64,000 nucleotides of DNA from Incurvaria masculella (Eukaryota > Arthropoda > Insecta > Lepidoptera > Incurvariidae), in NCBI GenBank assembly GCA_946894095.1, contig OX335665.1, positions 816,001 to 880,000 on the forward strand, given 5' to 3'. Under the pieces are notes generated by a model. That model did no database searches, was not told the origin of the DNA, and saw only the letters and a program-made list of their open reading frames with translations. Of this stretch, positions 718-55,000 are shown one piece after another. Within the stretch, counting starts at the first letter, position 1. Each line of letters begins with the position of its first letter. The position numbers and the translations under genes were made by a program.

Positions 718-784
718 CTATCTCTGCGTCCTGCGGACTGCTTTTCTAACTCTTCGCGCGCCGGGAGCTGCCGCTTGTGGTGTT
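718..784 (-). CDS. NUP153: NUP153 last coding exon, basic C-terminus
   Basis: A strong acceptor (pyrimidine tract then TTTCAG) precedes 67 nt that complete the split glycine codon. They encode a short Ala/Pro stretch and then PGARRVRKAVRR followed by TQR and TAG. The basic ending is the conserved tail of NUP153 family proteins. The exon lies about 5.25 kb from the previous one and is too short to show up in simple ORF scans. Confidence 0.82.
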
Positions 785-28002: not shown

Positions 28003-31000
28003 ATGAGTCTGTACAACTTCAAGAAGATTGCGGTGGTACCCACCGCAAAGGTAGTACTTTTCACATAATTCAGTCATATGTTTATAAATTCAACACCCAT
28101 AACCTCACTTCTTCAGCGACTGAAGAATATAATATTTGAGAATTAAAGTACATTCCTACATATCTAAGTGTTTCATTCTACACTACGAGTAACGCAAAAA
28201 AATTCAAACTATTACAACAAAATATTTTTCTTAGCATACAATAGAAATATTGTGCAATATATACGAGACGTTATTAATGCTAACTCAACCAATCAATTCA
28301 AAAATCCTTTGGACACTCACTTTAAAAGAAAATAAAACAAAGAACCAATTAATTCATATTACAATGGCAATTGACTAAAAAAAAAAACAAAAACAAATAA
28401 ATAAATGTGTTACCAAAAACTAATTAAATAACTTTTCACATGACGATCAACTTAATCTAATGAAAAATAAGATTTAGACATATCAGCTTAGGCTGCCTGT
28501 CTAAAATAAATACATAAATAAATAAATATTTATGCCCGTGGACTATCACGCTATCGACTCGATAATGTTCTTTGCTTTATATAATTGATTTATGTTTGTT
28601 TAATAGTAAGGATTTTAATTTAAATAAATCCCTCTTCACTAGTTTCAACTTAGATACAAATGTGTTTATTCTTTTTGTACAGGACTTTATCGATATAATG
28701 CTGTCCAAAACGCAACGCAAGACACCGACCGTCGTCCACAAACATTACAAGATATCACGAATACGAGCGTTTTACATGCGCAAAGTCAAGTTCACTCAGC
28801 AGAACTTCCACGACCGACTCTCCAGGATTATTCAGGTAATTCGACCAAAATATCCGGTGCCATAAAGTCGCTGTTTTGTTTTTTAGGGTCACGTACCCAA
28901 CGGAACCCTATTAGTAAGCCTCCGTTGTCCGTCCGTCTGTCACAGGCTTGTATCTCATGAACCGTAATTGGTAGGCAACTGAAATTTTCAGAGTGTATAT
29001 ATTTTGCCGTAATGAAACCGATGATAGCTTCGATCGTCACCTTTATTTTGTCACTTTTCAGGAGTTTCCAAAGCTGGACGACGTACATCCTTTCTACGCG
29101 GACCTCATGAACGTTCTCTACGACAAAGACCACTACAAATTGGGCCTCGGGCAACTCAACACGGCGCGCCATCTCATCGACAAGTGAGTCTCGTTCAGCG
29201 TGTTTGCGTCCACTGCTGCACATACGCCTCTCCAATTTTCCTCCAGTCCTCCCGGCCCTCAGCGGTACGGAACCGCAGCTTTCCGCCGATGGACTTGATG
29301 TTTTCGTCCCACCTGGCGGGTGGTATTCCCACACTCCGTTTTCCTGTTCACGGCCGCCAGTGTAGGACACGGTTACTCCAACGGTTGTCGCCTCTTCAGC
29401 TGACGTGACCAGCCCACTGCCACTTGAGCTCAGCCACCCAGCCTCGTTACGCACCATATCCCGTAGCGATATTCGTTCGTATAGTCATTAGCAATGAAGT
29501 TTTTGGGGACTAGAGCAGACTCTGCGAGGACAATAGTGTTTTTTTTTTTGATAGACTAGCAGCTTTGGCTGATGCGTCTATGTCACAACAATTTAAGTTT
29601 ATTCCAAGGAATGTGATATGTATGTATGTATAATCGACCGTGAACCAAGGACACATTAATTAAAGTAAAATCCTAGTAAAAATAACTACTTTACGAATAT
29701 ACTACAAAGCTGGAGCCGAACCAGAAAAACATACCATTCGCGGATATTCCGTCTACCAATTTCGCCACCTGCTGTATATCCATGATTTGGAATTCTCCTA
29801 CAATCCCTCCACCTGTAATGAATGCCTCCTACTAACACAGTGTTTAAGGTTATACCTACATACATTTATTTAACGCTTCATCTTCAACAAATCATCATTA
29901 GTTTCATCATTAACAAATAGACGGTTTCGCGTGCGAGTTGGAGAGGATATGTCCGAACCTTACCAAGTTCTAAGCGGTGTACCACAGGGATCCGTCGTCG
30001 GCCCAGCCGCCTTCAGAGTATTCCTAACAGATTTCATTTCATTTCATTTATTTATTCAACTTCTGGTAGTAAAACTACACTAAGTCATGTCACAATTTGA
30101 TTGATCCGCGGATTCGATCAACCAGTGAAGAAGAACCCGCAAAGAAACTTCACTGGTCTATAAATTATGTTTTTTTTTTGGTCTTCTTTTTTTTCGTCCA
30201 CATAAATGATATAACACAATTATTATTTCATACCTAAATGCTACTGCCAAACTTACATTGGTAGAACGGTCTGGAGCAAAGAACTAAGGACTACGAGGAA
30301 ACAACAACCCACAATGTGAAAACTCTTAATTAATAAATAAATTACTTAACTTAATAACTTTTTTTATTTATGATTTAGGGGAGATAACACACCTCACCTT
30401 CTCTCTTTTCGCTGATGATACCAAATTTTTTGCTAACCCTATTATCGCCCAGCAAAAAATCCAGGACACCCTCGACAGGATTTCTGGATGGACAAAGGAA
30501 TGGCTATTGTCGCTCAATGCCAGTAAATGCACTGTGCTACACCTAGGACCCAAAAACCCGCATCACTCTTACTGGCTTGATGGAAAAATTATAGAGACAG
30601 TGACAACGCAACATGACCGCAATGTGACAATTTCAGAAGATCTTAAATGGGAGACACACATTACAGAAGTCGTCAAGAAAGCCAATTCCCTTCTATACAT
30701 GATCAGAAAAGCCTTCTCGTACATAAATACAGAACTATTCCTAAAATTATATAAGGCCTATGTTCGCCCCTTATTGGAATATGCTTTTCTGATTTGGAAC
30801 CCTTATTTTAGAAATATATATAGACCTTGTGGAGGGTGTTCAAAGACGGGCCACAAAAATGATTGCAACAGTTCAGAATCAAAGTTATGAACATCGACTT
30901 AAAATTCTCGGACTCAGCACCCTAGAGGAACGCCGCCAGCGAGGAGACCTCATAGAAACATACAAAATCCTCAATGATTACTATAATTTACCAAATCTCA

Positions 31001-34000
31001 AAGAAATGTTCACAAAAAATACAAACAAACACCTTAGAGGGCACAGCTTAAAACTGAACCAATCTGCATCAAATTCTAGGAAACACTTCTTGGTCAACAG
31101 AGTTGTAGACTCTTGGAACAAGCTGCCGGAGGAGGTCATTAGTGCTGAAACTGTAAATGGATTTAAAAACCGACTAGACAAACATTTAAAGGCAATAAAA
31201 AAACAAATAATCAATAATAATAATAAACAATCAATAATCAATAAATAAAATCAATATACAAAATACATAATTTGAATGATAAGTAATATTAATAATATCA
31301 ATTTAATAATTGAAAAAATACACAAGTGCACTCCGGGAAAAATGAAATTCACTCATCAGCTTCAAGCTGCTAGTGATATAAATAACATAATAATAATAAT
31401 CTGCGTTGCGGACATTGACTGCAAAGATTGAACCATTCGAACATATTGACGTGGTCACCAAAATCTAATTCTTACATCGTTTTCAGCGTTGCCAAGGACT
31501 ATGTGCGTCTGCTAAAGTACGGAGACTCGCTGTACCGATGCAAGCAGCTAAAGCGCGCCGCGCTTGGTCGCATGGCTACCATCATGAAGCGTCAGGGCGC
31601 CAACCTCAGCTATCTCGAGCAGGTAAACGGAGTCCCACCCTCGTTGGTTTTGGACACTGAAGAGTTCATTCAAATTCTGTCCTTATTTCGAAACACACAC
31701 AAGACCATTTGTCGCGTATTTAAAGTCAGAAAAAAAACCACATGTTCTTAACTCTAACTATAAAGAAAGGACTATACTGCCGCAGCAGGCGCATCGCCCA
31801 TTGTCCCCAGAATAAAGGTTTGGTAGTAGCAAGTCGACCGGTTGGTGAGTGAACCCTTCCTTATTCCAAGGGGACTATAGCGTCATCTTAGCTGCACCAG
31901 GTGAGTCCATCTTTCCAAAACCAAAACCTTACATTCCACTGCAAAACTCGTCATTGGCAATAATCATTTTCAGGTGCGGCAACACTTGGCCCGCCTGCCG
32001 TCCATCGACCCGTATACACGCACCATCATCATCTGTGGCTTCCCCAACGTCGGCAAGTCCAGTTTCATCAACAAGGTATGCAGTTGCACATAGCTATAGG
32101 TAGTCGTCCCTTGTTACCTGACACGGATGGCGGAAGTCACACCTTGTCAATAAACTTTTCAATGGCACAGAATTTGAGAATTATTTTTATTTTGATACAT
32201 TTTTGTAACCATTAAATACATTCAAAATATCAAGTGAATAAATATACTTTTTCGTACTAAGCAAAAATCAAATCAAAAAATTATTTATTAAAAAATATAA
32301 ATATACATGCTTTACATTCATAGACCCCTGCACTAGATAAATTCTGTCTTGCAGAGGTCATTTTCACTTTAAACATTTTTTTTTAAATTCCTTTGCGCTT
32401 TCGAAAAAAAAAAAAAAACAATATGAGCTAAAGCTACTAAAAAAAATAATAAAATTAAAAACAAATCAAATATTAAATCAACAAAACGAAATTCAATAAT
32501 ATAATAAAATTTGTATGTTCATTTCAATCTAATCAGGTGTAAATCAAGTGTGTTTGAGGAGGTTCAAAAAGGGGGGTTAAAAAAAAAAAAAAAAAAGGTG
32601 GGGGGGAGGGTGAGGAGTGTCGGGATTCTGTATATAAAGGTGTTTGCAGGCGTATTTGGTTTGAATTTGATGATATCTAGGAGGAGATTTGGAGAAGTTT
32701 TTCGGTTTTATCATAATCAAGCGAATTCAGCCACGTTTTAGGAACATTTTTACGACTATTAATGGTGTTTAAATCCAGAGTGTGCGCTTTGTTTATTTTA
32801 TTATACAAATGTGGTGCGAGAAAAGAACTAAAACGTTGGGCAAAAAGCGTTCTGCATTGTGACGGCTTTGGTTGGTTACGACCTCTGGTCTGAATCTCGC
32901 CTAGATCGGGGCGGGCGGGCTTGCTTTCAAAATTTTGCAGAAGACGACTTATGAATAGCTGTCGCACTGACAACATACCGGTTTCGTACAGCAAACTGTA
33001 AGTGCTGTAGCGAAAGGGCTTTTTGAAAATCACACGAAGTGTGGCACGTTGTGCTCTTTCTAATATTATTAGATCTGTTTTTGCCGCACCTCCCCACACT
33101 CTTATGCAATAGGTTAGTATAGACTCAGTCATTGCGTAGTACACGGTTTTTAAAAGTTTAATGTTAGCTATGGTCCTAATACATTTATAAAAATATATTA
33201 ATTTTCTCATTCTTGAGGCAATTGATTCAATATGGTTACGCCACGTCAAGTGCTCATCCAAGATCACACCCAAATACCTGATGTGACTCACTCTTTCTAA
33301 GTGCTCACATGAACAAGGGCCGAAGAGGGAACACGTATGTAATGTAATCCGGTGATCCTCACGTACTCCTCTCGCCCTCGTTATAGTAAAGCACATATAC
33401 TTAGTTTTGCTAGCATTTACAGTTAATAAGTTATGATCTAGCCATTTCTTTACACTAATCAACCCTTTCTCCGCCTGAATAAACGTTTGCGCCCAGTTGT
33501 AGCCTGAGAAAAGCAATACAGTATCATCTGCATATGTGATTATTTTCGAATCTATTATTGATAAATCACACAACTCATTTATGTAAATTAAGAACAGCGT
33601 TGGTCCTAGGATGCTACCCTGAGGTACTCCATATTTTATTTGACACTTGTCGCTAACTAAGTCCTTTATTTTTACTTGCTGAGTACGTTCATTTAAATAG
33701 GATTCAAACCATAAAAGTGGCAGCCCTCGCACTCCTACCCGCTCCATTTTTGCTAGTAGTAGTGGTATCGAAACCGTGTCAAACGCTTTGGCCAGATCTA
33801 AGAAAATGCCTACTGAGACTTTTTTCTTATCAAGATGCTCGACAACGTAATCAACTACAGAGGTAACAGCCTTTTCCGTTGACCTCTTTGGTCTGAACCC
33901 ATATTGGTTTTCTGATAGTAGTTCGTGTGTTTCTAAATAATTGCATAGTCTAGCTTTCATAATCTTTTCTAGAATTTTGGAAAGTGATGGCAGCAAAGAA

Positions 34001-37000
34001 ATGGGCCTGTAGTTTTGTACGTCTTTCTGGTGGCCGGATTTGTAGATTGGACATATCATTGCATTTTTGAAGGCAGTAGGAAAGATACCGGTTGAAAGGC
34101 TGAGATTACATATGTGTGTCAGAGGCTCAAGTATATGTGGTTTGATCTTTTTTAAGCACCTGGCGGTAATGTTATCCCACCCCGGAGCACTATCATTTTT
34201 TAGTTCAGCAATGATTTTGGAGACCTCGTAAATATCAGTCGGGCTTACGAAAAAGGTGTTAGAATTTTTTGTCGCCTTGGTGGCTTCCAAAATCAGCGCA
34301 TCTTCTGTTAAGTTTAGGTTTCCTAGTTTTTCCTGTGCAAATCTTTCTCCCACCTCCACAAAATACTTATTTATTTCGTTTAAGCGTTGCAAATTTGTGT
34401 TTGTGGTGTTATTTGGAATTGAAAGCAGTTGTGTAGCTGTGCTGTCTTTTGACGCGCCGATGTTAGCAGCCTCCTTCATTATTTCCCAAAGTTTCTTAGG
34501 GTTGTCCCTGTTGTACACAATTTTGGTACTATAGTAAAGATCTTTCGCTGTTTTACAGGCCAAAATACAGGTATTTCTATATTGCTTGTATGTATTTAAA
34601 TAGGTAAAAGGATACTGCCGTGAGAGCATATGTAGACTGTCTCGTTTGTCTATACATCTTAACAAGTTCGGTGTAATCCAGGGCTTTTTTATTATAATTG
34701 TTGTTTTGAGAGTTTGCGTCGATGTGTGTGCTTGTATTACGGATTGGATCGTCTTTATGAAAGTATTTGCGGCGGTGTCTACATCGTGCTCCATGAGTAT
34801 ATCAGTCCATGTTTTGTCCTTCAGGCTATTGCATATATTAGTAAAATCTGTTTTTGTAATGGTTTTAGTGCTGTTTTTGCTCTTATTTTTAATCTTATGC
34901 AAGCATGCTAGTACTGGCAGATGGTCCGTAACAGGTGAGTCGCAGATGATTGAAGTTACATCGTTTCGGCTTTTAACCATTACATGATCCAGACAAGCTT
35001 TTTCACGCGTTGGCTGAGTTACCGCTGGCAACAGTCCCAACTCTGAGCACATACATAGGTATTGCATAGCTTTATTATTCCTAGATGATGGTGTGATGTC
35101 TAAATTGATATCGCCTGTAAGGATAAAATGCTGGGCCTTGTTGTTCTTATCAATAGTGTCGTGTAACGAATGCAGAAAAGGATCAATATCATGAGTCGAA
35201 GGGGATCGATATATAGCAAGTAAAACGGTATTGTGGCCGACTCGTAAAAGTAAGCTGTTGGCATCGTCAATATCTGGCTCCTCATAGGAGACTTGCAGAT
35301 TTTGTTTATAGTATACTACAACACCGTCGTTTTGTAGCCGGTTTTTTATTGTTCTGATCGCCGTGTATCCCTCCATATACATTTCGTCAGGTACCTCTTT
35401 CAGCCAGCACTCCGTGAGTACTATGACATCAAAAAGTATGTCCAATCTGTGTAAGAGAATGGTTAAATTGTCAAAGTTTTTCTTGATGCTACGTATGTTG
35501 AGTGTAAGTGTAGTTAGCGTAGTAAACTGGTTCAGTACAGCCTTGCAGTTTTCTGCTTGTGATATTACTATTGATTTTACATTGCACACGTTGTCGATGT
35601 CATTGCACATATCTATATTATTTGACGCGGCCATTATCTTGTGTGATTGGTTTAAGAAAACAGAATAAAAAGCCATGAGCAATTTGAGTTGAATAATGTA
35701 TGCAGTTATAGTATACATATGTATAAGGATGGGTTAGGGTTTCTGTAGGTATGTATGTGGTTGTGTTGGGTAATGTGTATATGTGAGCGTCACAGTCGAC
35801 ATTAGTTTTACATTGAAATAGAATGAAAATATTAATTAATAAATGAGATGAGTAGTTTATGGCCCATTTCAGTATTGTACTTAAAACGAATTTGCTGAAC
35901 ATACTATTGAGAACAATTCTCTTAAACAAAATTAATACCCCTAAATACCAAGGACATATAAACATATCTAACTGTAAGGGTTCCAATACAGTTAACACAT
36001 AGCCATATGGTACATGCAACCTGAAAAATGATAAAATAAAATGTACAGTAATTTTATAAAATGCGAAGGACATTTTAAGATATTTTGTTTTTAAATATAT
36101 AATGTTCTTAAATGTTTCAAAATCATCACCAGAGTTAATTGTGGCATACGTTTCGTAAAACAGATCTACAATAAAAGATAAAACCATTTTGTCCCAGAAT
36201 AATATAGTCCGTGCAAATAGAAGCACAGTGTACATTTGGTGATAACAATACATTATTTTTAATTTCATTTCATAATAGTAGATAGTCGATATTTGAGAAA
36301 ACAAATATGCTATATAATCCAGAAAGAATCCTAAAAATAATAATATTACAATTTCACTTAATGCATCTAGAGAGCTTAAATTTATAAAACAGAATGTGTA
36401 AAAATAGCACCTATTTTTTAAATCAAAATTAAAAATGTCATAACACAAATGAGAATGATATTTTTTTGAATATTTTTTCAGCATCATTTTTTAAATATAG
36501 GTGTAGATATATCGTATGACGTTAAAAATATTTATGAAATTCTCTTCGGGCCTTCTACCTTTATAAAATCACTTGTCGACCTAATATAGTGAACTTTGTT
36601 CGTCCCTTCCTCTTTTTTTAAGAGTATTTGACCATTTTTGGTCCATACAAACTTATAATTATAATTTTTCGCGAATTTCTTTGTTTCTTGAAGCAGCACT
36701 TTCCGCTGCTGCGTAAGTTGTTCGTTGAAGTAGAGTTTAGGAGCGGTGGCCACCGGGATCTTTGGGTCCAGTAGGTTGGCCTTCAGCTGTTTGCTTCTGC
36801 AAGCCGTCAGCACCCTCTGCTTCGTTTCCACGTTGTTTAGCTTGTAGATGATAGAAGGCGTGCGCAGCGGCGCCGGCGCCAGCGATGCGGGTGCACCTTC
36901 TCCGGAGGGGGTGCCGCGCGTATGGGGAGGGCGCGGGGCGGGAAGGCGGCGTCCCCACTCGACCTCGGCGGGGGAGAGGGGGCAGCCGGCCTGGGAGCAC

Positions 37001-40000
37001 ACCTTCATGATTGCATCGACGGGCTGCACGTTCTCGGGCACACCTTGCACCTCGATATTGGCGGCGAGACTCTCTTGTTCCACGTTGTCGAATTTGTACC
37101 GCATTTCGTGAACTATCTTGCGAAGTTCCGCTCGTTCCTCGTTTGCTTCCTTTATTTGTGTAGCTTGAAATTTCACCAGCTTTTCCAGCTCATCGCCGCG
37201 GTCGCCCTGGTATTCCAAAGATTTCAATATCTCTTTCTGAGTCTCCTTCAGATCGTTAAGTTGCTGGTGGTAGTTCTGCAATGTAGCCAGAATTAGTTTT
37301 GTATCTTTCTGAAGAGATGAGACAGCATTACCGATATCTATTGATGCAGAAAAGGGGCTGGATGGGTGTTCGATTGGATCGTCCATAACTATTGAGGGTT
37401 TTTTTTTATTTTTGCACGAAGGGCATTTCCATTCAAACTCGTCGTTTTTCAAACTATTTACAGCTGCTGGTGTTAACTTAGCACACTTTGTGTGGAACCA
37501 GTTACTGCAGGCTCCCATACATTGGAGTCCCGGTTTGGATCTGGCGATTTTATCATTACAAATAGTACAGCTATTCATTTCAGCTGTGTTCACGTATGCT
37601 TGCAAGGTTTGCAAACGTACCGCTTGTGTGCTGTAGGATGTCGTTGCTTCACAACCGAAACATAGATGTCGCTGAGTTTAAGATCATGTAGCCGGTATTG
37701 GGAGTTGAGGTATTTACCAACAGATGTCGCTGACTTTTAGATCATGCAGCCGCAATTGGGAGTTGAGCTATTCTCCAACAGGTGTCGCCATAAATGTTTG
37801 AGGGTAGGTTATGGCGATATTATTAGGATATTAATGATTTGCACATGCATTTATAGTTATATTGTTCAAAAGTCTTGAGTATTTGACACTGACCTTTCTG
37901 TGTTCCTTTTATTTCGGTTTTCATAAAGTATTTACTCCATTTTACGTTTATATTTTTTGTTCATATTTTTGTGTTTTTAGAACTATTTGCCACACTTCAC
38001 GTTGTAATAACACTCACACTACTAATCCACATGCAAATTTATTTAAGTCAGATGTTTTTACACTTTAAATCGGTATATTTGATATTATTTTAAACCTTTT
38101 CAGCAGGAGCTCTTTCGTATTATTGTTATCCGAGCTAGCGCCATCTAGCAATAGCAGGTACGTCGCTTATTTCAAGGAATGTGACATGTATGTATGTATA
38201 ATCGACCGTGAAGCAAGGACACATTAATCGAAGAAAGAGTCCAGTAAAAAGAACTACTTTACGAATATACTGCAAGGCTGGACCCGAACCATCAAACCAT
38301 ACCATTCGGTATTGCGTCTACCAATTTCGCCACTGGATGTATACCCATAATTTCGAATTCTCATCCAGTAATCAAAGACTACTTCAAACAACTGTTTAAG
38401 ATTATACCTACATGTAATTCGTAAAGTAGATCTTTTTACTGGGCTCTTTCTTTAATTTATGTGCCCAAGCTTCACGCCACTCATACATGCATGTCACATA
38501 TCAAGGGGAATCTGAGCAGACCGTAATGTCTAATAAGAAAATAGAGTAGTGACGAAAGCGACCAGGTATCTGGGAGATTGAATCATCTGGGTCGTTTTTT
38601 TGTTTAGAGCATGAGACATGTATTGCAGATCAGTTTCCTGCTTCAGATAAATATCAGACCAAAAACGTTTTTGCTCATTTTCAGATTTTTTCTAAGGTCC
38701 TTCTTCCGAGCTGTGCAGCTACAATTATAATAAAACGATGGTATTTCCAGATAACCCGAGCCGACGTAGAGGTCCAGCCGTACGCGTTTACCACAAAGTC
38801 GCTGTACGTCGGCCACACCGACTACAAGTACCTCCGCTGGCAGGTAGGCTGACTCCCCTCTTCTAGGCGAATGTACAGTCAGCGACACGGTAAAAGCCAC
38901 AATTTGAACTTTTACTATGGACGATGCAAAAGAAATGACCCACGAATTCTCGCCATTGAGGTGAGTCTGTCTGATGTCTATTTTTTTTAAGATAAATACA
39001 TTTTATCTTTGAGTAATCCACCTCTAAAGTTATTGTATAAAACATGCGAAAAATTCGAACTTTCGGACCTTATAACTTAGAAACCAAACACAATTGTACA
39101 ATGTCAACAGTCATCAGAGATCTAGTTCGATCAAATAAAGCTATTTTGAGCAAAATGTTGGATCTCTGACAAGAAATATGGGCGTGATCTTCTTTTTCCG
39201 TTTGTATGGGGAGTTGAGCGGGAAGGCCCACCTTAAGGTGGCCCAACCCGGTGGAACTAACACATTCACGGGCACAGTACAAAACCGTGCTGTTGCCCTC
39301 TGTACCTCTGTTTCAAAGAAAAATACAGGCTCCGTGATGAGGAAGATGCAACATGTCCACAAAAAAGACAATGTGCATAGTGTTATGCAATGCTACATTT
39401 TAGCTCATTAAATAGATACCACAACAAACACACTGAAATAATTCCTAAAATTAATCAAATTGAAAACGACGTCAATGTCCTAAAAACTCTTATGTAACGC
39501 AAGTATAACTTCTACAGATTTTTTTGTACCTTTGTACTACCAGGAGCCAAGTAACACTAATATTTTTAATGAAATACAGTGTATTGAACATTAATTGCTT
39601 GGATATGCGAACAATGTATTTATACACTTTATAATATATATTAATATTATCTGGAAAAATACACCTACACTACTCTCAACTATAACCTACCATATTCCGA
39701 CGAAAGACCCTCTCTCCCATAGCACAGGGAATCCTATTTTGTAAGACAGGGATCCTACAAAATTTAACTACTACATGTTAAAGTATTAAGCAAAAATATT
39801 CTTCAATGAACACGATACATACTTACATTACTACACTATCTGAAACCTGTTGTTTTGTTTATTTTTCTTGTACTTGTTCTGAACTTGCTTAATCAGTGAA
39901 ATAAAGATTTATTATTATTATGTATGATTTGGTAAGATTTACGAAAATTTTAATTACAAAACGACTTATAGCTAAAAGTAAACCACGACCGCTGTAGTCA

Positions 40001-43000
40001 AAAATTTAACAAAAACCGAACAGATTATAAATCTTGATTAAATAAGCCATGTCTGATGACTAATCTTTTTAAGATGTACTTAATTTATCATAACGTAATC
40101 CACTTCCAAAGTTATTGTATATAACTCGTACAAATTCGTATTGTATAAATTCGAACTTTCGGACCTTAAAACTTAGAAACCAAACACAATTTTACAATGC
40201 CAACTGTCATCAGACATGTAGTTCGATCAAATAAAGCTATTTCAAGCAAAATTTGGGATCTCTGACAAGAAATATGGGCGTGATCTTCTTTCCCGTTTGT
40301 ATGGGGAGTTGAGCGGGATGGCCCACCTTAAAGCAAAATATTGTGAGAAAATTCTCAACTTGGGTGGTGCGGGGGCGTGTAGGTATTGGTAATAGTTGGG
40401 TGACAGAAATGGATGGGACGACAGCTAAGTCAGCCGGTGTAAGAGCAAGTATTCTGTTTTCGGAATCTAAAACTGGCACCCATTTATGCATATATGCATG
40501 TATCAACTGTATGCAAGTGCTAATTAAATGTGCTCACCACTGCATGGTAATTATATAGACAATAGGGGACAACAAGGGAAAACCTTACTTTTTTCTGAAT
40601 AAAAAAAAAGTCAAATTACAGTCACATGCTTTTGTCACTTGGCTTCCCTAACGAACACTGTCCCTTTTGAATAAGCTGCCAGTCCAAAACTAATTAGTGT
40701 CCGACCGAAACTGGTTTGCCGGCCGAAACCGAATATTCGGCCGAGGTTTCAGTTTTGGGCTAAACCGAAACTCACGTGGTCAAGTATAAAATTCCTTAAA
40801 ATACCGAAATTTGGTGCATTTTACCCGTTATTTTGCATTAATTAGGACATGAAATGGAAACATAGTATATTAAGTATGTTGTAATCATTTATTTAATTTA
40901 ATATAAGAAAATATTAATAATATTTTGTATTATTTAACAGTTTCGGTTTTGGTAAAAGGTTCGGCCAATTTTGGCTGAAACCAAACTTGGTTTTTGGCCG
41001 AAACCGAACTTTCGGTTGGACACTAAAACGAATAAATGTAAACTAATATAAAAAGTGGAAAAGTTTGTTTGTTTTTTTGTTTGAACACGCTAATCTCTGA
41101 AACCACTAGTTGGGTTTAAAAAAGGGTTTTTTGTCATGACACCCCCATTTAAATATAGAATAAGCAAAAACTATGATACTTTTGAGATTACCGCGGTCGT
41201 TAGACATGTTTGAAAAATGTTATGGCTTTTCACGCGGCAGGAAGAGACATTCTTTGACGTTTCGAGCTAATCATTTAGCCCGTTGTCGAGGAGGCATCCG
41301 CCACGTTCGTACGGAGAAGACGACTCCAGCAGTTCAGTGGCAGGTGCTTAGTTGACAACGGGCTGAATGATTCGCTCGAAACGTTGGAGAATGTCTCTTC
41401 CTGCCGCGTGAAAAGCCGTAACATTTTTCAAACAAGCGAAAACTAAGTAATTTATTTATTTATGAATTAAACAAAATTTCAGGTGATCGACACGCCCGGC
41501 ATCCTGGACCACCCGCTCGAGGAGCGCAACGTGATCGAGATGCAGGCGGTCACCGCGCTCGCCCACCTCCGCGCCGCCGTGCTCTACTTCGTGGACCCCT
41601 CCGAGCAGTGCGGCCACACCCTCGAGGAGCAGGTAGCTACCCGACACGCCCGGCATCCTGGACCACCCGCTCGAGGAGCGCAACGTGATCGAGATGCAGG
41701 CGGTCACCGCGCTCGCCCACCTCCGCGCCGCCGTGCTCTACTTCGTGGACCCCTCCGAGCAGTGCGGCCACACCCTCGAGGAGCAGGTAGCTACCCGACA
41801 CGCCCGGCATCCTGGACCACCCGCTCGAGGAGCGCAACGTGATCGAGATGCAGGCGGTCACCGCGCTCGCCCACCTTCGCGCCGCCGTGCTCTACTTCGT
41901 GGACCCCTCCGAGCAGTGCGGCCACACCCTCGAGGAGCAGGTAGCTACCCGACACGCCCGGCATCCTGGACCACCCGCTCGAGGAGCGCAACGTGATCGA
42001 GATGCAGGCGGTCACCGCGCTCGCCCACCTCCGCGCCGCCGTGCTCTACTTCGTGGACCCCCCGAGCAGTGCGGCCACACCCTCGAGGAGCAGGTAGCTT
42101 CCCGACACGCCCGGCATCCTGGACCACCCGCTCGAGGAGCGCAACGTGATCGAGATGCAGGCGGTCACCGCGCTCGCCCACCTCCGCGCCGCCGTGCTCT
42201 ACTTCGTGGACCCCTCCGAGCAGTGCGGCCACACCCTCGAGGAGCAGGTAGCTACCCGACACGCCCGGCATCCTGGACCACCCGCTCGAGGAGCGCAACG
42301 TGATCGAGATGCAGGCGGTCACCGCGCTCGCCCACCTCCGCGCCGCCGTGCTCTACTTCGTGGACCCCTCCGAGCAGTGCGGCCACACCCTCGAGGAGCA
42401 GGTAGCTACCCGACACGCCCGGCATCCTGGACCACCCGCTCGAGGAGCGCAACGTGATCGAGATGCAGGCGGTCACCGCGCTCGCCCACCTCCGCGCCGC
42501 CGTGCTCTACTTCGTGGACCCCTCCGAGCAGTGCGGCCACACCCTCGAGGAGCAGGTAGCTACCCGACACGCCCGGCATCCTGGACCACCCGCTCGAGGA
42601 GCGCAACGTGATCGAGATGCAGGCGGTCACCGCGCTCGCCCACCTCCGCGCCGCCGTGCTCTACTTCGTGGACCCCTCCGAGCAGTGCGGCCACACCCTC
42701 GAGGAGCAGGTAGCTACCCGACACGCCCGGCATCCTGGACCACCCGCTCGAGGAGCGCAACGTGATCGAGATGCAGGCGGTCACCGCGCTCGCCCACCTC
42801 CGCGCCGCCGTGCTCTACTTCGTGGACCTCTCCGAGCAGTGCGGCCACACCCTCGAGGAGCAGGTAGCTACCCGACACGCCCGGCATCCTGGACCACCCG
42901 CTCGAGGAGCGCAACGTGATCGAGATGCAGGCGGTCACCGCGCTCGCCCACCTCCGCGCCGCCGTGCTCTACTTCGTGGACCCCTCCGAGCAGTGCGGCC

Positions 43001-46000
43001 ACACCCTCGAGGAGCAGGTAGCTACCCGACACGCCCGGCATCCTGGACCACCCGCTCGAGGAGCGCAACGTGATCGAGATGCAGGCGGTCACCGCGCTCG
43101 CCCACCTCCGCGCCGCCGTGCTCTACTTCGTGGACCCCTCCGAGCAGTGCGGCCACACCCTCGAGGAGCAGGTAGCTACCCGACACGCCCGGCATCCTGG
43201 ACCACCCGCTCGAGGAGCGCAACGTGATCGAGATGCAGGCGGTCACCGCGCTCGCCCACCTCCGCGCCGCCGTGCTCTACTTCGTGGACCCCTCCGAGCA
43301 GTGCGGCCACACCCTCGAGGAGCAGGTAGCTACCCGACACGCCCGGCATCCTGGACCACCCGCTCGAGGAGCGCAACGTGATCGAGATGCAGGCGGTCAC
43401 CGCGCTCGCCCACCTCCGCGCCGCCGTGCTCTACTTCGTGGACCCCTCCGAGCAGTGCGGCCACACCCTCGAGGAGCAGGTAGCTACCGGACACGCCCGG
43501 CATCCTGGACCACCCGCTCGAGGAGCGCAACGTGATCGAGATGCAGGCGGTCACCGCGCTCGCCCACCTCCGCGCCGCCGTGCTCTACTTCGTGGACCCC
43601 TCCGAGCAGTGCGGCCACACCCTCGAGGAGCAGGTAGCTACCCGACACGCCCGGCATCCTGGACCACCCGCTCGAGGAGCGCAACGTGATCGAGATGCAG
43701 GCGGTCACCGCGCTCGCCCACCTCCGCGCCGCCGTGCTCTACTTCGTGGACCCCTCCGAGCAGTGCGGCCACACCCTCGAGGAGCAGGTAGCTACCCGAC
43801 ACGCCCGGCATCCTGGACCACCCGCTCGAGGAGCGCAACGTGATCGAGATGCAGGCGGTCACCGCGCTCGCCCACCTCCGCGCCGCCGTGCTCTACTTCG
43901 TGGACCCCTCCGAGCAGTGCGGCCACACCCTCGAGGAGCAGGTAGCTACCCGACACGCCCGGCATCCTGGACCACCCGCTCGAGGAGCGCAACGTGATCG
44001 AGATGCAGGCGGTCACCGCGCTCGCCCACCTCCGCGCCGCCGTGCTCTACTTCGTGGACCCCCCGAGCAGTGCGGCCACACCCTCGAGGAGCAGGTAGCT
44101 ACCCGACACGCCCGGCATCCTGGACCACCCGCTCTAGGAGCGCAACGTGATCGAGATGCAGGCAGTCACCGCGCTCGCCCACCTCCGCGCCGCCGTGCTC
44201 TACTTCGTGGACCCCTCCGAGCAGTGCGGCCACACCCTCGAGGAGCAGGTAGCTACCCGACACGCCCGGCATCCTGGACCACCCGCTCGAGGAACGCAAC
44301 GTGATCGAGATGCAGGCGGTCACCGCGCTCGCCCACCTCCGCGCCGCCGTGCTCTACTTCGTGGACCCCTCCGAGCAGTGCGGCCACACCCTCGAGGAGC
44401 AGGTAGCTACCCGACACGCCCGGCATCCTGGACCACCCGCTCGAGGAACGCAACGTGATCGAGATGCAGGCGGTCACCGCGCTCGCCCACCTCCGCGCCG
44501 CCGTGCTCTACTTCGTGGACCCCTCCGAGCAGTGCGGCCACACCCTCGAGGAGCAGGTAGCTACCCGACACGCCCGGCATCCTGGACCACCCGCTCGAGG
44601 AGCGCAACGTGATCGAGATGCAGGCGGTCACCGCGCTCGCCCACCTCCGCGCCGCCGTGCTCTACTTCGTGGACCCCTCCGAGCAGTGCGGCCACACCCT
44701 CGAGGAGCAGGTAGCTACCCGACACGCCCGGCATCCTGGACCACCCGCTCGAGGAGCGCAACGTGATCGAGATGCAGGCGGTCACCGCGCTCGCCCACCT
44801 CCGCGCCGCCGTGCTCTACTTCGTGGACCCCCCGAGCAGTGCGGCCACACCCTCGAGGAGCAGGTAGCTTCCCGACACGCCCGGCATCCTGGACCACCCG
44901 CTCGAGGAGCGCAACGTGATCGAGATGCAGGCGGTCACCGCGCTCGCCCACCTCCGCGCCGCCGTGCTCTACTTCGTGGACCCCTCCGAGCAGTGCGGCC
45001 ACACCCTCGAGGAGCAGGTAGCTACCCGACACGCCCGGCATCCTGGACCACCCGCTCGAGGAGCGCAACGTGATCGAGATGCAGGCAGTCACCGCGCTCG
45101 CCCACCTCCGCGCCGCCGTGCTCTACTTCGTGGACCCCTCCGAGCAGTGCGGCCACACCCTCGAGGAGCAGGTAGCTACCCGACACGCCCGGCATCCTGG
45201 ACCACCCGCTCGAGGAGCGCAACGTGATCGAGATGCAGGCGGTCACCGCGCTCGCCCACCTCCGCGCCGCCGTGCTCTACTTCGTGGACCCCTCCGAGCA
45301 GTGCGGCCACACCCTCGAGGAGCAGGTAGCTACCCGACACGCCCGGCATCCTGGACCACCCGCTCGAGGAGCGCAACGTGATCGAGATGCAGGCGGTCAC
45401 CGCGCTCGCCCACCTCCGCGCCGCCGTGCTCTACTTCGTGGACCCCTCCGAGCAGTGCGGCCACACCCTCGAGGAGCAGGTAGCTACCCGACACGCCCGG
45501 CATCCTGGACCACCCGCTCGAGGAGCGCAACGTGATCGAGATGCAGGCGGTCACCGCGCTCGCCCACCTCCGCGCCGCCGTGCTCTACTTCGTGGACCCC
45601 TCCGAGCAGTGCGGCCACACCCTCGAGGAGCAGGTAGCTACCCGACACGCCCGGCATCCTGGACCACCCGCTCGAGGAGCGCAACGTGATCGAGATGCAG
45701 GCGGTCACCGCGCTCGCCCACCTCCGCGCCGCCGTGCTCTACTTCGTGGACCCCTCCGAGCAGTGCGGCCACACCCTCGAGGAGCAGGTAGCTACCCGAC
45801 ACGCCCGGCATCCTGGACCACCCGCTCGAGGAGCGCAACGTGATCGAGATGCAGGCGGTCACCGCGCTCGCCCACCTCCGCGCCGCCGTGCTCTACTTCG
45901 TGGACCCCTCCGAGCAGTGCGGCCACACCCTCGAGGAGCAGGTAGCTACCCGACACGCCCGGCATCCTGGACCACCCGCTCGAGGAGCGCAACGTGATCG

Positions 46001-49000
46001 AGATGCAGGCGGTCACCGCGCTCGCCCACCTCCGCGCCGCCGTGCTCTACTTCGTGGACCCCTCCGAGCAGTGCGGCCACACCCTCGAGGAGCAGGTAGC
46101 TACCCGACACGCCCGGCATCCTGGACCACCCGCTCGAGGAGCGCAACGTGATCGAGATGCAGGCGGTCACCGCGCTCGCCCACCTCCGCGCCGCCGTGCT
46201 CTACTTCGTGGACCCCTCCGAGCAGTGCGGCCACACCCTCGAGGAGCAGGTAGCTACCCGACACGCCCGGCATCCTGGACCACCCGCTCGAGGAGCGCAA
46301 CGTGATCGAGATGCAGGCAGTCACCGCGCTGGCCCACCTCCGCGCCGCCGTGCTCTACTTCGTGGACCCCTCCGAGCAGTGCGGCCACACCCTCGAGGAG
46401 CAGGTAGCTACCCGACACGCCCGGCATCCTGGACCACCCGCTCGAGGAGCGCAACGTGATCGAGATGCAGGCGGTCACCGCGCTCGCCCACCTCCGCGCC
46501 GCCGTGCTCTACTTCGTGGACCCCTCCGAGCAGTGCGGCCACACCCTCGAGGAGCAGGTAGCTACCCGACACGCCCGGCATCCTGGACCACCCGCTCGAG
46601 GAGCGCAACGTGATCGAGATGCAGGCGGTCACCGCGCTGGCCCACCTCCGCGCCGCCGTGCTCTACTTCGTGGACCCCTCCGAGCAGTGCGGCCACACCC
46701 TCGAGGAGCAGGTAGCTACCCGACACGCCCGGCATCCTGGACCACCCGCTCGAGGAGCGCAACGTGATCGAGATGCAGGCGGTCACCGCGCTCGCCCACC
46801 TCCGCGCCGCCGTGCTCTACTTCGTGGACCCCTCCGAGCAGTGCGGCCACACCCTCGAGGAGCAGGTAGCTACCCGACACGCCCGGCATCCTGGACCACC
46901 CGCTCGAGGAGCGCAACGTGATCGAGATGCAGGCGGTCACCGCGCTGGCCCACCTCCGCGCCGCCGTGCTCTACTTCGTGGACCCCTCCGAGCAGTGCGG
47001 CCACACCCTCGAGGAGCAGGTAGCTACCCGACACGCCCGGCATCCTGGACCACCCGCTCGAGGAGCGCAACGTGATCGAGATGCAGGCGGTCACCGCGCT
47101 CGCCCACCTCCGCGCCGCCGTGCTCTACTTCGTGGACCCCTCCGAGCAGTGCGGCCACACCCTCGAGGAGCAGGTAGCTACCCGACACGCCCGGCATCCT
47201 GGACCACCCGCTCGAGGAGCGCAACGTGATCGAGATGCAGGCGGTCACCGCGCTCGCCCACCTCCGCGCCGCCGTGCTCTACTTCGTGGACCCCTCCGAG
47301 CAGTGCGGCCACACCCTCGAGGAGCAGGTAGCTACCCGACACGCCCGGCATCCTGGACCACCCGCTCGAGGAGCGCAACGTGATCGAGATGCAGGCGGTC
47401 ACCGCGCTGGCCCACCTCCGCGCCGCCGTGCTCTACTTCGTGGACCCCTCCGAGCAGTGCGGCCACACCCTCGAGGAGCAGGTAGCTACCCGACACGCCC
47501 GGCATCCTGGACCACCCGCTCGAGGAGCGCAACGTGATCGAGATGCAGGCGGTCACCGCGCTCGCCCACCTCCGCGCCGCCGTGCTCTACTTCGTGGACC
47601 CCTCCGAGCAGTGCGGCCACACCCTCGAGGAGCAGGTAGCTACCCGACACGCCCGGCATCCTGGACCACCCGCTCGAGGAGCGCAACGTGATCGAGATGC
47701 AGGCGGTCACCGCGCTGGCCCACCTCCGCGCCGCCGTGCTCTACTTCGTGGACCCCTCCGAGCAGTGCGGCCACACCCTCGAGGAGCAGGTAGCTACCCG
47801 ACACGCCCGGCATCCTGGACCACCCGCTCGAGGAGCGCAACGTGATCGAGATGCAGGCGGTCACCGCGCTCGCCCACCTCCGCGCCGCCGTGCTCTACTT
47901 CGTGGACCCCTCCGAGCAGTGCGGCCACACCCTCTAGGAGCAGCCGACAGCGGAGGCTTAGTGCACGCGCGAAAAAAGAGCGCGCTAAAACTACCAACCA
48001 AACTTAAATGTGCATACATGCTATACGCAAATATAGTCGCAGACATATTGGAGAGAATTCATGCCATATGCAACAGTTCATGACAAATATAATTTTATTT
48101 GCAATTGTGTTTTATCTGCTTCATGGCAATCTGTTTAGAAAACAATAAGCCACTTCTTTATTTGATGTTACTCTGTTTTGGTTGTCTTCTCCCCACCAAC
48201 TAACATGTTGCCAATTGGAGCAGGCCAGTCCCCACAAACAGCACCCATTCACGAGCATCACGCCGGGCACAGCCATTACCTCTCTCGACCATATTTCAGG
48301 GAAAGAGATAACCCGAACCAAGCGTCACTGTAAGCAAGGACCTTAAAGTTATGCACTGCTCCAGTGGCAACAAAACACTGTGAAACACTTGCACGTTTGG
48401 TTTTAATACCATAATAATAGTTTTGTCATAAACTACTAGAGTGAGCGGACCACATAGTTACATATGCCCTTTAAATGCTACCACCTACAGAAAATTAAGA
48501 GTATAATGGTTTGGAGAGCAGCCTTATCAATAAAGTAAGAATAAGATTCCCGTATGAGATTTTGACCAATACCGATAAACATGACACCGTGTGAGTAGTG
48601 AAAAGTTAAAATAGACCCCCTGTTCCAGATATCGCTGTTCGAGAGCATAAAGCCGCTGTTCAGCAACAAGCCGCTGATCGTCGTGCTCAACAAGATGGAC
48701 ATCGTGCAGGTGGAGGAGCTGCCGCCGCACAAGCGGGCGCTCGTCGACGAGCTGCAGGAGAACTGCAAGAAGGCCAACATTGTCAAGTACGGGCCCCGCG
48801 AAATATTTTAATTGCAACTCCGAAGGGATGTAGGGTCTCTCTGGCTTCTATCGTCTTTACCATGGAGGATGCTCGACGGAGCTCGTCCCTCCGTCGCATT
48901 TCTAGCTTCAAGCTTCACATTTCCGAGCGGCTCGTAGCCTAGTGGCGCGGGGACTGGCCTAGCGTACCAGAGGCCCGGGTTCGATACCAACTTGCACCAC

Positions 49001-52000
49001 TGTCTTTCTCTTTCAGAGTTCGATAAGTGCATTTCGTCACGAATGCGAGCTGCTCCATGGTTCGGAATCCATGTAAAACTGTAGGTCCCCTTCCCCTACT
49101 AGGTGGTAGGGTTTGAGCCCGCCCGGGTTGGTACCATCGCATTGAATGAAAAGATGGTCGAAGCGGCAATGAAAAATTGTCCGTGTTTTCCATCCAGTTC
49201 AATGTAGCCGTGCCTCATAAAGGGAAGGTCCTGGCATGGCACCTAATTCCTTCGGGAATGTGGTGTATTGGGCTAATATCATAACGGTAGTTGTGTGGGA
49301 TTAGCCATCCATGTCAGGTCGCATAAAAAAAAAAAAAAAACCTGCCTTTTATGATGAGGATGGAAAACGCGGACAATTCTTGCCGCTTTGGCCATCTTTT
49401 CATCCAATGCGATGGTACCAACACGGGCGGGTTTAAACCCTATCACCTAGGGGACCTACAGTTTGACATGGATTCCGAACCATGGAGCAGCTCGCATTCT
49501 TGACGAAATGCACTTATCGAACTCGAAAAGAGAAAGAAAGTGGTGCATGAACTGGGCGAGGATTTGAACACAGACCGACCTGGTATGCAAGGCAAGTCCC
49601 CGCTCCACTTTTTTTTTTTTTTTTTTTTTATGTTAAGCGCGGCATATTGCGTACGCCAGGACATCTTAAGGTGCCCGACGACGCCCATGGGATTTCGAAT
49701 TTACAGGGGGGCTGCGAAAACCATGCCGGCCGGCCAGGTGCTTCTTCACACCATGTTTGAAGGACCCCAGGTTGTACTTTGGGGGAAATACATCGGAAGG
49801 GAGTTCATTCCATAGTTTTCCGACCCTATAGATGAAGGATCTAGAAGATCGGTGGGTTCTTATTTTTGGAATGTCGACTGTGAATGTGTGCATTTTCTCC
49901 CTGTTCCGCGTTGACCGCAGGTAGAAAGGGGACGGAGGAACAGCGTTATGCAGCTCCGACGAGCATTCTCCGTGGTAAAGACGATAAATATAAGAGATAT
50001 TAATTTATTTGGTGAACGAGCAGCCTAAGTTGATGTGTTCATATCTGAGTTTGCATGACGACTTGACCAAAAATGCTTACTGTGGCATTTATGTTACAAG
50101 GGATTGAAATAATGTATTCACACAAACGGGTACCAATAACCCGTATTTCTGTAAGCATTGGCAAACAAATTTGTAAACTTAGTGGCCCAGTGGAGTCAGC
50201 CTCAGTGGCCCAGTGGCGCGACACTTCGGTGATCGCTCTCCGAAGTTAAGCAACGCTGGGTCCGGTCTGGTCTTGGATGGGTGACCATTCGACCGTTGAG
50301 AGAGGCTGGCCGTGGTTCGGATTCCACGTTAAACTGTAGGTCCCCTTCCTTACTTACTAGGTGGTAGGGTTAATCCCGCCCGGGTCGGTACCATCGCATT
50401 GAATGAACGATGGTCGAAGCGGCAATGAAAATTGTCCGTGTTTTCCATCCAGTTCAATGTAGCCGAGCAATATAAGGGAGGTCCTGGCATGGCACCTAGT
50501 TCCCATGTGGTGTGTTGGGCTAATACCATGACAGAAGGTGTGGTATTAGCCATCATGTCCAGTCACATAAAAAAAAAAAAAAAAGTGGACGTTAAAAAAA
50601 AATTCAGCGAAGTTTCTTGCCAGTTCTTCTTCGCCGTGAATGCTGAACTGGCTTATGATAAAATATGACAACTCCGAGTGTGCTGCCTGTGGATGATGAA
50701 TAAACAATAAACAATTAAAAGAACATCACTTAGACATTGGTATTGACATTCATAATTGTGTTGGTTCAGCGTCGACGGCAACAGCGGGCTGGCGGAGGTG
50801 CCGGTGATGCGTACGTCCACCATGACAGGCGACGGCGTGCAGGAGGTCAAGATGGAGGCGTGCGAGCGCCTCCTCGGCCACCGCATCACAGAGAAGATGC
50901 GCAGCAAGAAGGTGTGGCATGCATGCTCTGCGGAATAGTTTTAATATTACTTCATAAACAAAAAACAAAAAAGTAGTTGGCACTAGTGTAATTAAAAGAC
51001 CGTGGCTTCGATCCCTGTGTATACACCTCTTTCTTTTGTATCCAAAATTGAAATGTGAATATTGGGTGGGAACGTTGGTCATTCCAGCGACTAAGGAAGG
51101 ACGGGAAACAGTGTAAACACTTTTACTAGCGCTATCGGTAGAACGATGCTCGGCACGAATTCGCTCACTACTGATGTAGAACTTCAGAGGTAGATATTTC
51201 GTGCAACGAACATTGCATTCGAATACTCACACAATTTAAACTGTCTACCTATCATGGTTCATAAGATACAGCATTTTAACAGAAACCCGGCTGGCTTGGT
51301 AATAGGGTTCTGTTGGCACCCTTTGGGTACGGAATTCTATAAAATTTAAAACAAGGGACCAAGGTGTAAGCCCTGCGTAACTCCTGAAGAAAATTGTAAA
51401 ACAAGGGACCAAGGTGTAAGCCTTGAGGGACTCCTCAAGAAACATTGTAAAACAAGGGACCAAAGTGTAAGCCTTGAGGTACTCCTGAAGCTATCTTAGC
51501 GGAGTCTCATCGTATCGTTTTGCGGTCGCAGGTGGACGGCATCCTGAACCGCCTGCACGTGGCGATGCCGACGGCGCGCGACGCGCGCGCGCGCCCGCCG
51601 TGCATCCCCGCCGGCGTGGCGGCGAAGCGCGCGGCGGCGGCTGCGCGCGACGCACGCAAGCGCAAGCTCGAGCGCGAGATCGAGCTGGAGGAGGGCGACG
51701 ACTACGTCCTCGGTGCGTTTTGTGTTCATTGTTATTATTTCATTTCATTTATTTAAACTCTTTTGGTAGTCAAACTACACACACAGTCAGTCAGTCAGCG
51801 TGTTTGCGTCCACTGCTGGACATACGCCTCTCCAATTTTTCTCCAGTCCTCCCGGCCCCCAGCGGTACGGAACCACTCCTTTTCGCCGACGCACTGGTGA
51901 CCACCTGGTCTTCCCACGCTCCGTTTTCCTGTCCACGGCCGCCGGTGTATAGGACACAGTTACTCACACACACTACTAACACAGTTACGGTGATGTGACC

Positions 52001-55000
52001 AGCCCATTGCCATTTGAGCTACACTAAGTTACGTCAAAAACTCCCGCAGAGAAAGATCCGCGGATTCCATCAACCAGTAAAGAAGAATCGGTAAAGAAAC
52101 ATTACTGGTACATACTTAGATCTAAATGCTACTGCCGAAAAATTCAATATTGATGCGGCAGGGACTTAAATGGGCACCAACCTGTATCGTACCAACATAA
52201 ATCAGCGTTTGCGGAACTTCGAAGTAGGGGTCGCATTCATTGTTCAAAGTTGCATTCATGAAGATAACGCTCATCTGATTAGATTTAATTTTCCATGGCG
52301 GCCGTCTTGTTCTCAGACCTGAAAAAGAACTACATTGAGATCGCGGAGGAGGAGAGGCACGACGTCATCCCGGAGTTCTGGGAGGGGCACAACATCGCCG
52401 ACTACATCGACCCGGACATCTTCGAGGTGAGCGCTGGACATTCACTTCACACCCCTGGAGGTTTTCTTGATACTGTTTGCGAAATATTTTGCAAGTACAA
52501 TCTCAAAGTACAACTTAAAACATAACTTCAAATCACTATTTTGAAGCTACACAGCGATTAACATTTTTTTTGAGTAAAAAACCGGTCAAGTGCGAGTCGG
52601 ACTCGTACACGAAGGGTTCCGTTCCATCGTACAAGATTGAACACAAAAATCACGTATTTTGTATGGGGTGAGGGATAAAAATTAAAGGACCAAAGGAGGG
52701 TCCTTTAATTTTTATACCCTTTTTATTTTACCTATTTGTTGTTACAGCGGCAAAATAGCTTTGAAAATTTCAGCTGTCTACCTATTACGGTTCATGAGAT
52801 ACAGCCCTGTGACTGACAGACAGACGGACGGACGGACGGACGGACTGACAGCGGAGGCTTAGTAATTCGTTTCCGTTTTCACCCTTTGGGTACGGAACCC
52901 TAAAAAATTCCAGTACATTTTGTATGAAACGATTTCTGACTCATCCGTCAGTTGACTCTGTACGTCTTTACATTCTAAGCGTATGCTTCCTTTTCGCTCG
53001 CTAGCCACTGAACCCTAAAAACTTGCCGATTCAAAACGTGCACGCTCCGCGCAGAAACTGGCGGCGCTGGAGCAGGAGGAGGAGCTGCGCGAGGCGGCCG
53101 GCATGTACGCCGCGCCCAAGATGGAGCTCGACGACACCATGCGTGAGATCCGCGCGCTCGCCGTGCAGATACGGTGAGTGCCGCCCGGGTGATAACCGCT
53201 CGGTCGCCCGCCAGCTCGGTTAGTCCCAAGATGATGTCCGTAGATGTCGCTGAGATATCCATTAAAATAATTTGTATGTATTTAATGGATACGACATTAC
53301 CGTTATCTCACTAATTTGAGTTTCAGCGACATCTACATTTGAAGCATTGTAATCAGATTTTGAAAATTAAAATTTTATTACATTAAAATTACATTCATCA
53401 GAAGCAGGATTTGAACCTGCGACCTTTGGATTACATGGCCACTGCTCTAAACCAACTGAGCTATCCCGACAATTACAATGCTTCAAATGTAGATGTCGCT
53501 GAGATATCCATTAAAAGAATTTTATGTATTTAATGGATACAACATTATTGTTATCTCATTAATTTGAGTTTCAGCGACATCTACATTCGAAGCTTTGTAA
53601 TCAGAAATACATAAAATTATCAAGTTAAATCCGGGCTCCGATACCAAAATCGACTTTGGTGACGACAGCAATAAGATCGATAGCTCAATCATTGCAGTCA
53701 AAATGCCTTAGCGTAGGATCAATACGCAAAAACATCATCAGCGCTATCTAGCAGAAGATAGGGGAAGCATTGTGTCGTTTCGAATATAATCGAGAAATTC
53801 GTTGGCTGACGTAATTGTCGGGATAGCTCTGTGGTATAGCTAGATGGTTTAGAGCAGTGGACAAGGTCGCAGGTTCAAGTCTTGCTTCCGACGAATGTCA
53901 CGACCAATACTTTTTCAGATTATTTTCAAAATCTGATTGCAATGCTTCGAATGTAGACGTCGCTAAAACTCAAATTAATCCATTCAAATATTTAAAAAAT
54001 ATCATATCGTCATAGACTTGAGCGTGGTGATTTCCCCCCGGTTGCAGCAATAAGAAGGCGATACTGAAGGACGAGAGCCGGCTCGTGAAGCAGTCGACGA
54101 AGCCGGTGATGCCGCGCAACACGCGCGCGCGCGAGCGCGACCGCTCCGTCGGGCGACTCCGCGGCGAGATGGAACAGCTGGGTACGCCTCGTGCTATTTA
54201 TTTATTAGGCCTCACAAGCCTGGTAAAACCGGCTAAGTGCGAGTCAGACTCGCACACGAAGGGTTCCGTACCATCGTACAAGATTGAACACAAAAAAAAA
54301 ACCCTTTTTTTGTATGTATGTGTAATCTTACCTATTTGTTGTTATAGCGGCAAAATAAATAAACACTCTGTGAAAATTTCAGCTGCCTACCTATTACGGT
54401 TCATGAAATACAGCCCTGTGACGGACGGACGGATAGCGGAGGCTTAGTAATAGGGTTCCGTTGGCACCCTTTGGGCACGGAACCCGAAAAAAGCAGGTAG
54501 CATGGGGATCTTATCGAAATATATGAAATACTGCACGATTCCATCTTTTGCCTTTTGTTGTCCACTGCTGGACGTAGGCCTCCCCCAGACTTCGTCAAGT
54601 TGTGTGGTCTCCTGTTTTACTTCACCAGTTGTCACCTGCTGTCGGACGTATATCGTCTGATCAACGCGCTGGCGCTTTTTCCTGTGTAGGGTTTCCACAT
54701 CAAAACTTCAGTGATCCATCTGTGGTCATCTCTGCGACATAAGTGTCCTGCCCACTGCCACTTGAGTTTAGCAACCCTATGCACAACGACCTTGGTGCTT
54801 TGGCGTATCAGCGAATTTGGCATTCGGTCGCGCAGTGATTCCTGATGCAGCATGATTCATATGGTGTCAATAATTTCAAAACAATGTACACATTTAACAC
54901 TAATGAGAGGCTACGGGGTCACTCACTAAAGTTAAATCGCACCCAAGCATTAACAAATCCTTGAAAACACTTCCTAACGAACCGAGTTTTGGATAATTGC

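Follow-up and report, generated by a model that had tools for sequence, protein, structure and literature searches.

An exon array inside the NOG1 gene

We analysed a window of 64,000 nucleotides from the lepidopteran Incurvaria masculella, positions 816001-880000 of contig 25 (C25) in a 552-Mb assembly of 31 contigs. The window contains the complete gene of the nucleolar GTP-binding protein NOG1 (GTPBP4), in which the larger part of exon 7, together with the splice donor, is repeated head to tail inside intron 7. The features of the gene and its array are, in window coordinates:

28003..57018, plus strand: complete 15-exon NOG1/GTPBP4 gene, host of the array, identified by exon model, Pfam domains and relatives (658 amino acids plus stop)
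41483..41632, plus strand: exon 7 proper, 50 codons, made of copy 1 and the unique 5' bases GTGAT; the acceptor ...AAATTTCAG ends at 41482 and the donor GTAGCTACC starts at 41633
41488..47943, plus strand: tandem array, 42 copies of a 154-bp unit (end of exon 7 plus first intron bases), from Tandem Repeats Finder and unit reading
41642..47943, plus strand: the 41 extra copies, inside intron 7 and without the acceptor of exon 7, from unit reading
47799..47943, plus strand: the last copy (42), with TAG in the exon frame and with the 8 donor-holding bases GTAGCTAC missing after it, from unit reading
48629..48786, plus strand: exon 8, which follows next in the gene model

The gene model of 658 codons plus stop has GT/AG borders at all 14 introns, and its product carries the Pfam domains NOG1_N, NOG1, NOGCT and MMR_HSR1. 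Exons 6-8 match solved-structure chains named nucleolar GTP-binding protein 1 or GTP-binding protein 4 (best 1.7e-56), and the structure matches at 1e-10 or better comprise six distinct sequences. The protein search scored the best 7,990 candidates and listed the best 120. Among these listed matches, the best named relatives are lepidopteran NOG1 proteins with about 85% identity over 100% of the query, and the top match is an unnamed protein with 86% identity. These relatives point to the order Lepidoptera. The fourth by score is an aphid record with 59% identity, which ranks so high because it holds two NOG1 copies: the partial Aphis craccivora record P0004 (993 aa) contains the motif GFPNVGKSS twice, at residues 34 and 523, in one gene model. 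The domains and the full-length homology identify the host gene as NOG1. Aligned with 11 relatives, exon 7 shows no gap; it encodes the G3 motif DTPG.

Tandem Repeats Finder reports a single array at 41488-47943 with a period of 154, 41.9 copies, 99% matches and 0% indels. Reading the array unit by unit gives 42 copies, spaced by 154 bp or, in 3 of the 41 gaps, by 153 bp. The original prediction of an exon 7 amplified in place about 42-fold thus agrees with both readings and with the gene model. The unit comprises exon bases 6-150 with 9 intron bases, or exon bases 7-150 with 10; both limits give 154 bp and both are possible because a base C is shared. A length of 154 bp is near that of a nucleosome. 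Twelve unit types are present, and 26 of the 42 copies, copy 1 among them, equal the consensus; the most altered unit is the copy at the right edge. Copies 1-41 differ pairwise by 0.57% on average. Stops in the exon frame occur in copies 18 and 42 and a 1-bp deletion in copies 4, 17 and 22, two of which (4 and 22) share the linked variant pair T113-/A152T; the remaining copies, taken singly, are mostly open in the exon frame. The array has a GC content of 70% and the introns that flank it have 36% and 41%; intron 7, at 6,996 nt, is the longest of the gene's 14 introns.

The edges of the copies distinguish the first from all others. To the left of copy 1 stand GTGAT and the acceptor AAATTTCAG, and copies 2-42 are each preceded by GTAGCTACC or GTAGCTTCC, which are the first intron bases past the donor. 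It had been claimed that the first copy alone keeps the acceptor and an intact 5' end of exon 7, and this is what we find. A donor of its own had been ascribed to every copy; 41 of the 42 have one (39 with GTAGCTAC and two with GTAGCTTC), and copy 42 has lost it.

We searched the whole assembly for the unit and for a second NOG1 gene. These searches score the best candidates only, so that match counts are lower bounds. All 42 unit matches fall in C25:857483-863943, and no similarity to the unit was detected elsewhere in the window at E 1e-3. A query of 351 NOG1 residues, from exon 6 to part of exon 13, gave 49 matches, all within C25:854751-870147, that is, within this gene; no second NOG1 gene was found in the assembly with this query. 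A dispersed satellite is rejected on the first result, and a pseudogene or paralogue on the second. The contention that this is no ordinary satellite therefore holds: the unit matches at this locus only, and the one NOG1 gene found hosts the array. Since the sole NOG1 found and the sole array site coincide, the NOG1 protein is very probably made from this locus. Chance is no explanation for the array, which, judged by its sequence, is real and confined to a single locus. The unit has no unusual RNA structure (fold z -0.21), and the array has no Rfam element at the gathering threshold, the window's only two matches being transfer RNAs (tRNAs) elsewhere.

Other introns of NOG1 hold repeats and elements of their own. 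Intron 5 contains an open reading frame of 360 aa (36532-37614, minus strand) that by eye resembles the first open reading frame of a retrotransposon without long terminal repeats. In intron 9 a 51-bp unit is repeated 3.0 times with 90% match at 51341-51490, about 40 bases before exon 10. Intron 12 carries a tRNA-Thr (anticodon tgt) and a weaker tRNA-like match on opposite strands, at 53396-53470 (minus) and 53817-53893 (plus), the second being enclosed by the inverted-repeat pair 53558-53605 / 53932-53979. A dispersed repeat occurs in two copies, 81% identical, at 48197-48444 (intron 7, downstream of the array) and 63023-63269. Further to the left, at 12153-12203, lie about 10 copies of CTAAC at an internal position, the insect telomere motif, and a tandem 51-bp unit at 7369-7619, also called as 102 bp, is about 75% alike between copies; its length is divisible by three and it may be a coding repeat.

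Reading frame and splicing

The consequences of using each donor were computed on the gene model. Among the 41 donors, donor 1 alone gives the full-length protein of 658 aa; with each of the other 40 the reading frame meets a stop over 50 nt upstream of the last junction, which under the 50-nt rule is the usual condition for nonsense-mediated decay. Reading through from copy 1 leads to a stop in copy 3 after 119 codons. Skipping exon 7 keeps the frame at the cost of 50 residues including the DTPG motif.

Splice sites were scored with a simple frequency matrix. On this scale the donor of exon 7 is the sixth lowest of the gene's 14 donors, and GTs of the unit other than the donor score 2.34 at most, against 6.4 for the donor itself.

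We propose that the gene is still functional because the sole exon 7 acceptor lies in copy 1. Exon definition, with acceptor and donor 150 nt apart and recognised as copy 1 is transcribed, would select donor 1, and the 40 later donors, lying in an intron without a true acceptor of their own, would mostly be ignored. Copies 2-42 are best described as pseudo-exons of the intron that carry a donor but have no true acceptor, with copy 42 lacking the donor as well. The original prediction had these copies locked in the intron. They do lie in intron 7; that they also stay within the intron at splicing is the likeliest outcome, given the reading frame and splice anatomy.

Proposed growth of the array and alternative readings

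The borders of the array carry a short repeat, CGACA. With slashes separating the segments, the left edge reads GTGAT/CGACA/CGCCC, the internal junctions GTAGCTACC/CGACA/CGCCC and the right edge, after the 8-base loss in copy 42, CGACA/GCGGAGG. Such sequences would result from a tandem duplication between a pair of CGACA repeats at a distance of 154 bp. We infer that 154 bp, made up of the 3' part of exon 7 and the donor-holding start of the intron, were duplicated head to tail in place, probably through repair or slippage between CGACA at exon bases 6-10 and CGACA just inside the intron; with these breakpoints, the unrepeated intron 7 would start GTAGCTACCCGACAGCGG. Unequal exchange and gene conversion among neighbours would then have raised the number to 42, kept the copies uniform and brought intron 7 to its present length of about 7 kb. 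The clustering of shared variants speaks for growth by unequal exchange: in copies 2-41, copies that share a variant have a mean gap of 6.5 copies, against 13.6 in shuffles, and 41 of 10,000 shuffles gave a value as low. Unequal exchange is also supported by the alternation of C73G, common to copies 32, 34, 36, 39 and 41 (steps of 2, 2, 3 and 2). The small mean difference between copies implies that the array is, as its sequence goes, young or quickly homogenised.

Two further features lie close to the array:

41207..41434, no strand assigned: fold-back element resembling a miniature inverted-repeat transposable element; its two arms of 98 nt have 88% complementarity, the DNA fold gives z = -17.7, and 53 bases separate its end from the left border of the array
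47946..47962, plus strand: GACAGCGGAGGCTTAGT, a piece of 17 bp that belongs to a dispersed repeat and lies two bases away from the array's right end, with exact matches at 52847 (plus) and 62476 (minus) and a shorter match at 54435

The fold-back element is a possible trigger of the array. Its nearness is weak evidence, because the window has 13 listed inverted repeats outside the array, this element included, with arms of at least 40 nt separated by no more than 400.

A tolerated in-place amplification, started by the CGACA duplication, enlarged by unequal exchange and made harmless by the choice of donor 1 through exon definition, is in our view the probable history of the locus, and the array would have no selected function. 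Several observations weigh against this account. The acceptor of exon 7 scores lowest of the gene's 14 acceptors, and three AGs within the unit score 1.44, 1.49 and 1.93, compared with 1.92 for the true acceptor, so that pseudo-exons may arise from internal AGs. The GACA of the GACAGCGGAGGCTTAGT piece overlaps the candidate CGACA homology; given this match to a dispersed repeat, the agreement of the right edge with CGACA may partly be due to chance, or a later repair with a short templated insert may have made the present right edge, the original one having been lost. Finally, the substitutions in the copies show a slight synonymous bias: of the seven coding substitution types four are synonymous, against an expected fraction of 0.238 (P = 0.06, not significant), and the three that are common to at least two copies are all synonymous. 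The count covers variant types in copies 1-42, leaving aside the 1-bp deletion, the 8-bp loss, the intronic A152T and the change at unit base 1. Such a weak bias neither proves nor excludes selection on the copies.

The array might instead be a splicing regulator, in which 40 decoy donors compete with donor 1, send some of the transcripts to nonsense-mediated decay and make the copy number set the NOG1 dosage. In keeping with this, all but one of the 41 donors would yield transcripts with an early stop, and the authentic sites of exon 7 rank as low as described above. However, a difference of 0.57% among copies 1-41 gives no sign of an old array or of one kept by selection, and on general grounds an exon of 150 nt following its acceptor should favour donor 1. 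We regard regulation by decoys as unlikely. Rather doubtful, too, is an elaboration of it in which decoy donors form a brake on NOG1 output tuned by copy number, exchange with its own intronic copies steadily overwrites exon 7, and selection on that one exon keeps a non-coding array of 6.5 kb near the coding sequence. If the brake did operate, NOG1 output would depend on the length of the array.

Near-identical copies are also what an assembler could multiply from one or a few in the organism, or count too high, and among offsets of 140-5,999 the longest exact self-overlap within the array, found at a shift of one unit, measures 1,077 bp. Against such an artefact, the assembly is chromosome-scale (contig 25 measures 9.95 Mb), the window contains no N, the flanks are those of an intact gene, and the 12 unit types have their shared variants clustered locally, including the linked pair in copies 4 and 22. 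An assembly artefact or an inflated count thus appears distinctly improbable.

The exon could also have been captured elsewhere, by a satellite or a transposon of the Helentron kind, and inserted here as an array. In favour of this, 17 bp of a dispersed repeat adjoin the array on the right, and Helentron-borne arrays are reported in oyster in the available part of one account (PMC7492417). In NOG1, however, copy 1 is the native exon, and neither the assembly, with match counts that are lower bounds, nor the rest of the window yielded a copy outside the array, which makes a transposon-borne origin very improbable.

Least credible of all is that the copies serve as alternative or repeated coding exons of a longer or variable protein: most copies are indeed open singly in the exon frame, but copies 2-42 have no exon 7 acceptor, 154 is not a multiple of three, read-through ends in copy 3, exon 7 is single in all 11 aligned relatives, and neither the junction peptide nor a second DTPGILD occurs in any of 186 retrieved relatives. 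A coding expansion is rejected on frame and stops. The substitution pattern likewise gives no good evidence of translation of copies 2-42, among which a 1-bp deletion is common to three copies and stops are present in two.

As to arrays in other species, the absence of the junction peptide from the 186 relatives is weak evidence, as these are predicted proteins. In a protein search with the reading frame of the array, 42 of 66 matches end exon 7 with [EQ]QV, and by a rough pattern match 31 of these 42 continue into unrelated sequence, as expected if exon 7 of the relatives stops at this donor too, with an ordinary intron after it. Viral contigs and prokaryote genome contigs yielded no match to the junction 24-mer, and a phage collection yielded none to the 154-bp unit; these are not insect collections.

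If the array is a tolerated amplification, the locus offers a natural experiment with near-identical 5' splice sites, 41 in number and spaced by 154 nt, each preceded by almost a whole exon; only the first should be usable. Duplicated donors tend to compete, and the array allows an in vivo test of exon definition and transcription order against such competition. It also suggests that a satellite-like array can start from a coding exon while the gene, apparently, survives. Copy 1 must work, and exchange with it could now and then purge bad copies; selection on one copy could in this way keep a non-coding array uniform.

Comparison with known systems

The original prediction held that no case like this had been described for NOG1. 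A limited search of open-licence papers, with the gene itself named in only part of it, found none. The kind of array is known, however: the variable number tandem repeat (VNTR) in intron 18 of human ABCA7 repeats an exon's donor, and the KIV-2 VNTR of human LPA repeats whole exons.

Arrays of Drosophila Y chromosomes resemble ours in being short and homogenised. The consulted part of the report (PMC8794474) describes young homogenised satellites of 5.5-26 kb in all, one of which arose from three tandem copies in a transposon end, and discusses microhomology-mediated repair for these chromosomes. Those satellites lie on Y chromosomes, whereas the NOG1 array begins inside a coding exon, and its host is a single-copy housekeeping gene. 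The Helentron-borne arrays of Crassostrea gigas are likewise short, satellite-like and tandem; in the portion of the source available (PMC7492417) they are dispersed over the genome on mobile elements, in contrast to the one locus found here, with the native exon as copy 1.

According to the sections of the source at hand (PMC5954066), the ABCA7 VNTR begins at the donor of exon 18, has about 12 to 427 units and reaches 10.7 kb; use of a donor one unit on, or retention of one unit, shifts the frame, and the array is linked to disease risk. In both genes the array directly follows an exon and repeats its donor, here as CAG/GTAGCT (the slash marking the exon border) in 41 of 42 units. The ABCA7 unit, as given there, is 25 bp long, starts at the donor and consists of intron bases only, whereas the NOG1 unit has 154 bp, of which 144-145 are coding exon. 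For ABCA7, length polymorphism and effects on splicing have been measured; the NOG1 array is known from the sequence of one assembly.

The LPA KIV-2 VNTR shares with NOG1 the tandem amplification of exon sequence within one gene. It has up to 40 units per allele, each of about 5.6 kb with two complete exons per kringle, in the part of the description available (PMC11201333). Its units add coding kringles; the NOG1 copies, out of frame and without an acceptor, should add nothing to the normal protein. Two properties of the LPA type are absent here: copies 2-42 are not whole exons, as they lack the acceptor of exon 7 (weak internal AGs are present), and the 154-bp unit does not keep the frame, 40 of the 41 donors leading to an early stop. 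The NOG1 array thus lies between the ABCA7 and LPA types. What is new in it is the tandem repetition of a nearly whole coding exon together with its donor, without an acceptor and out of frame.

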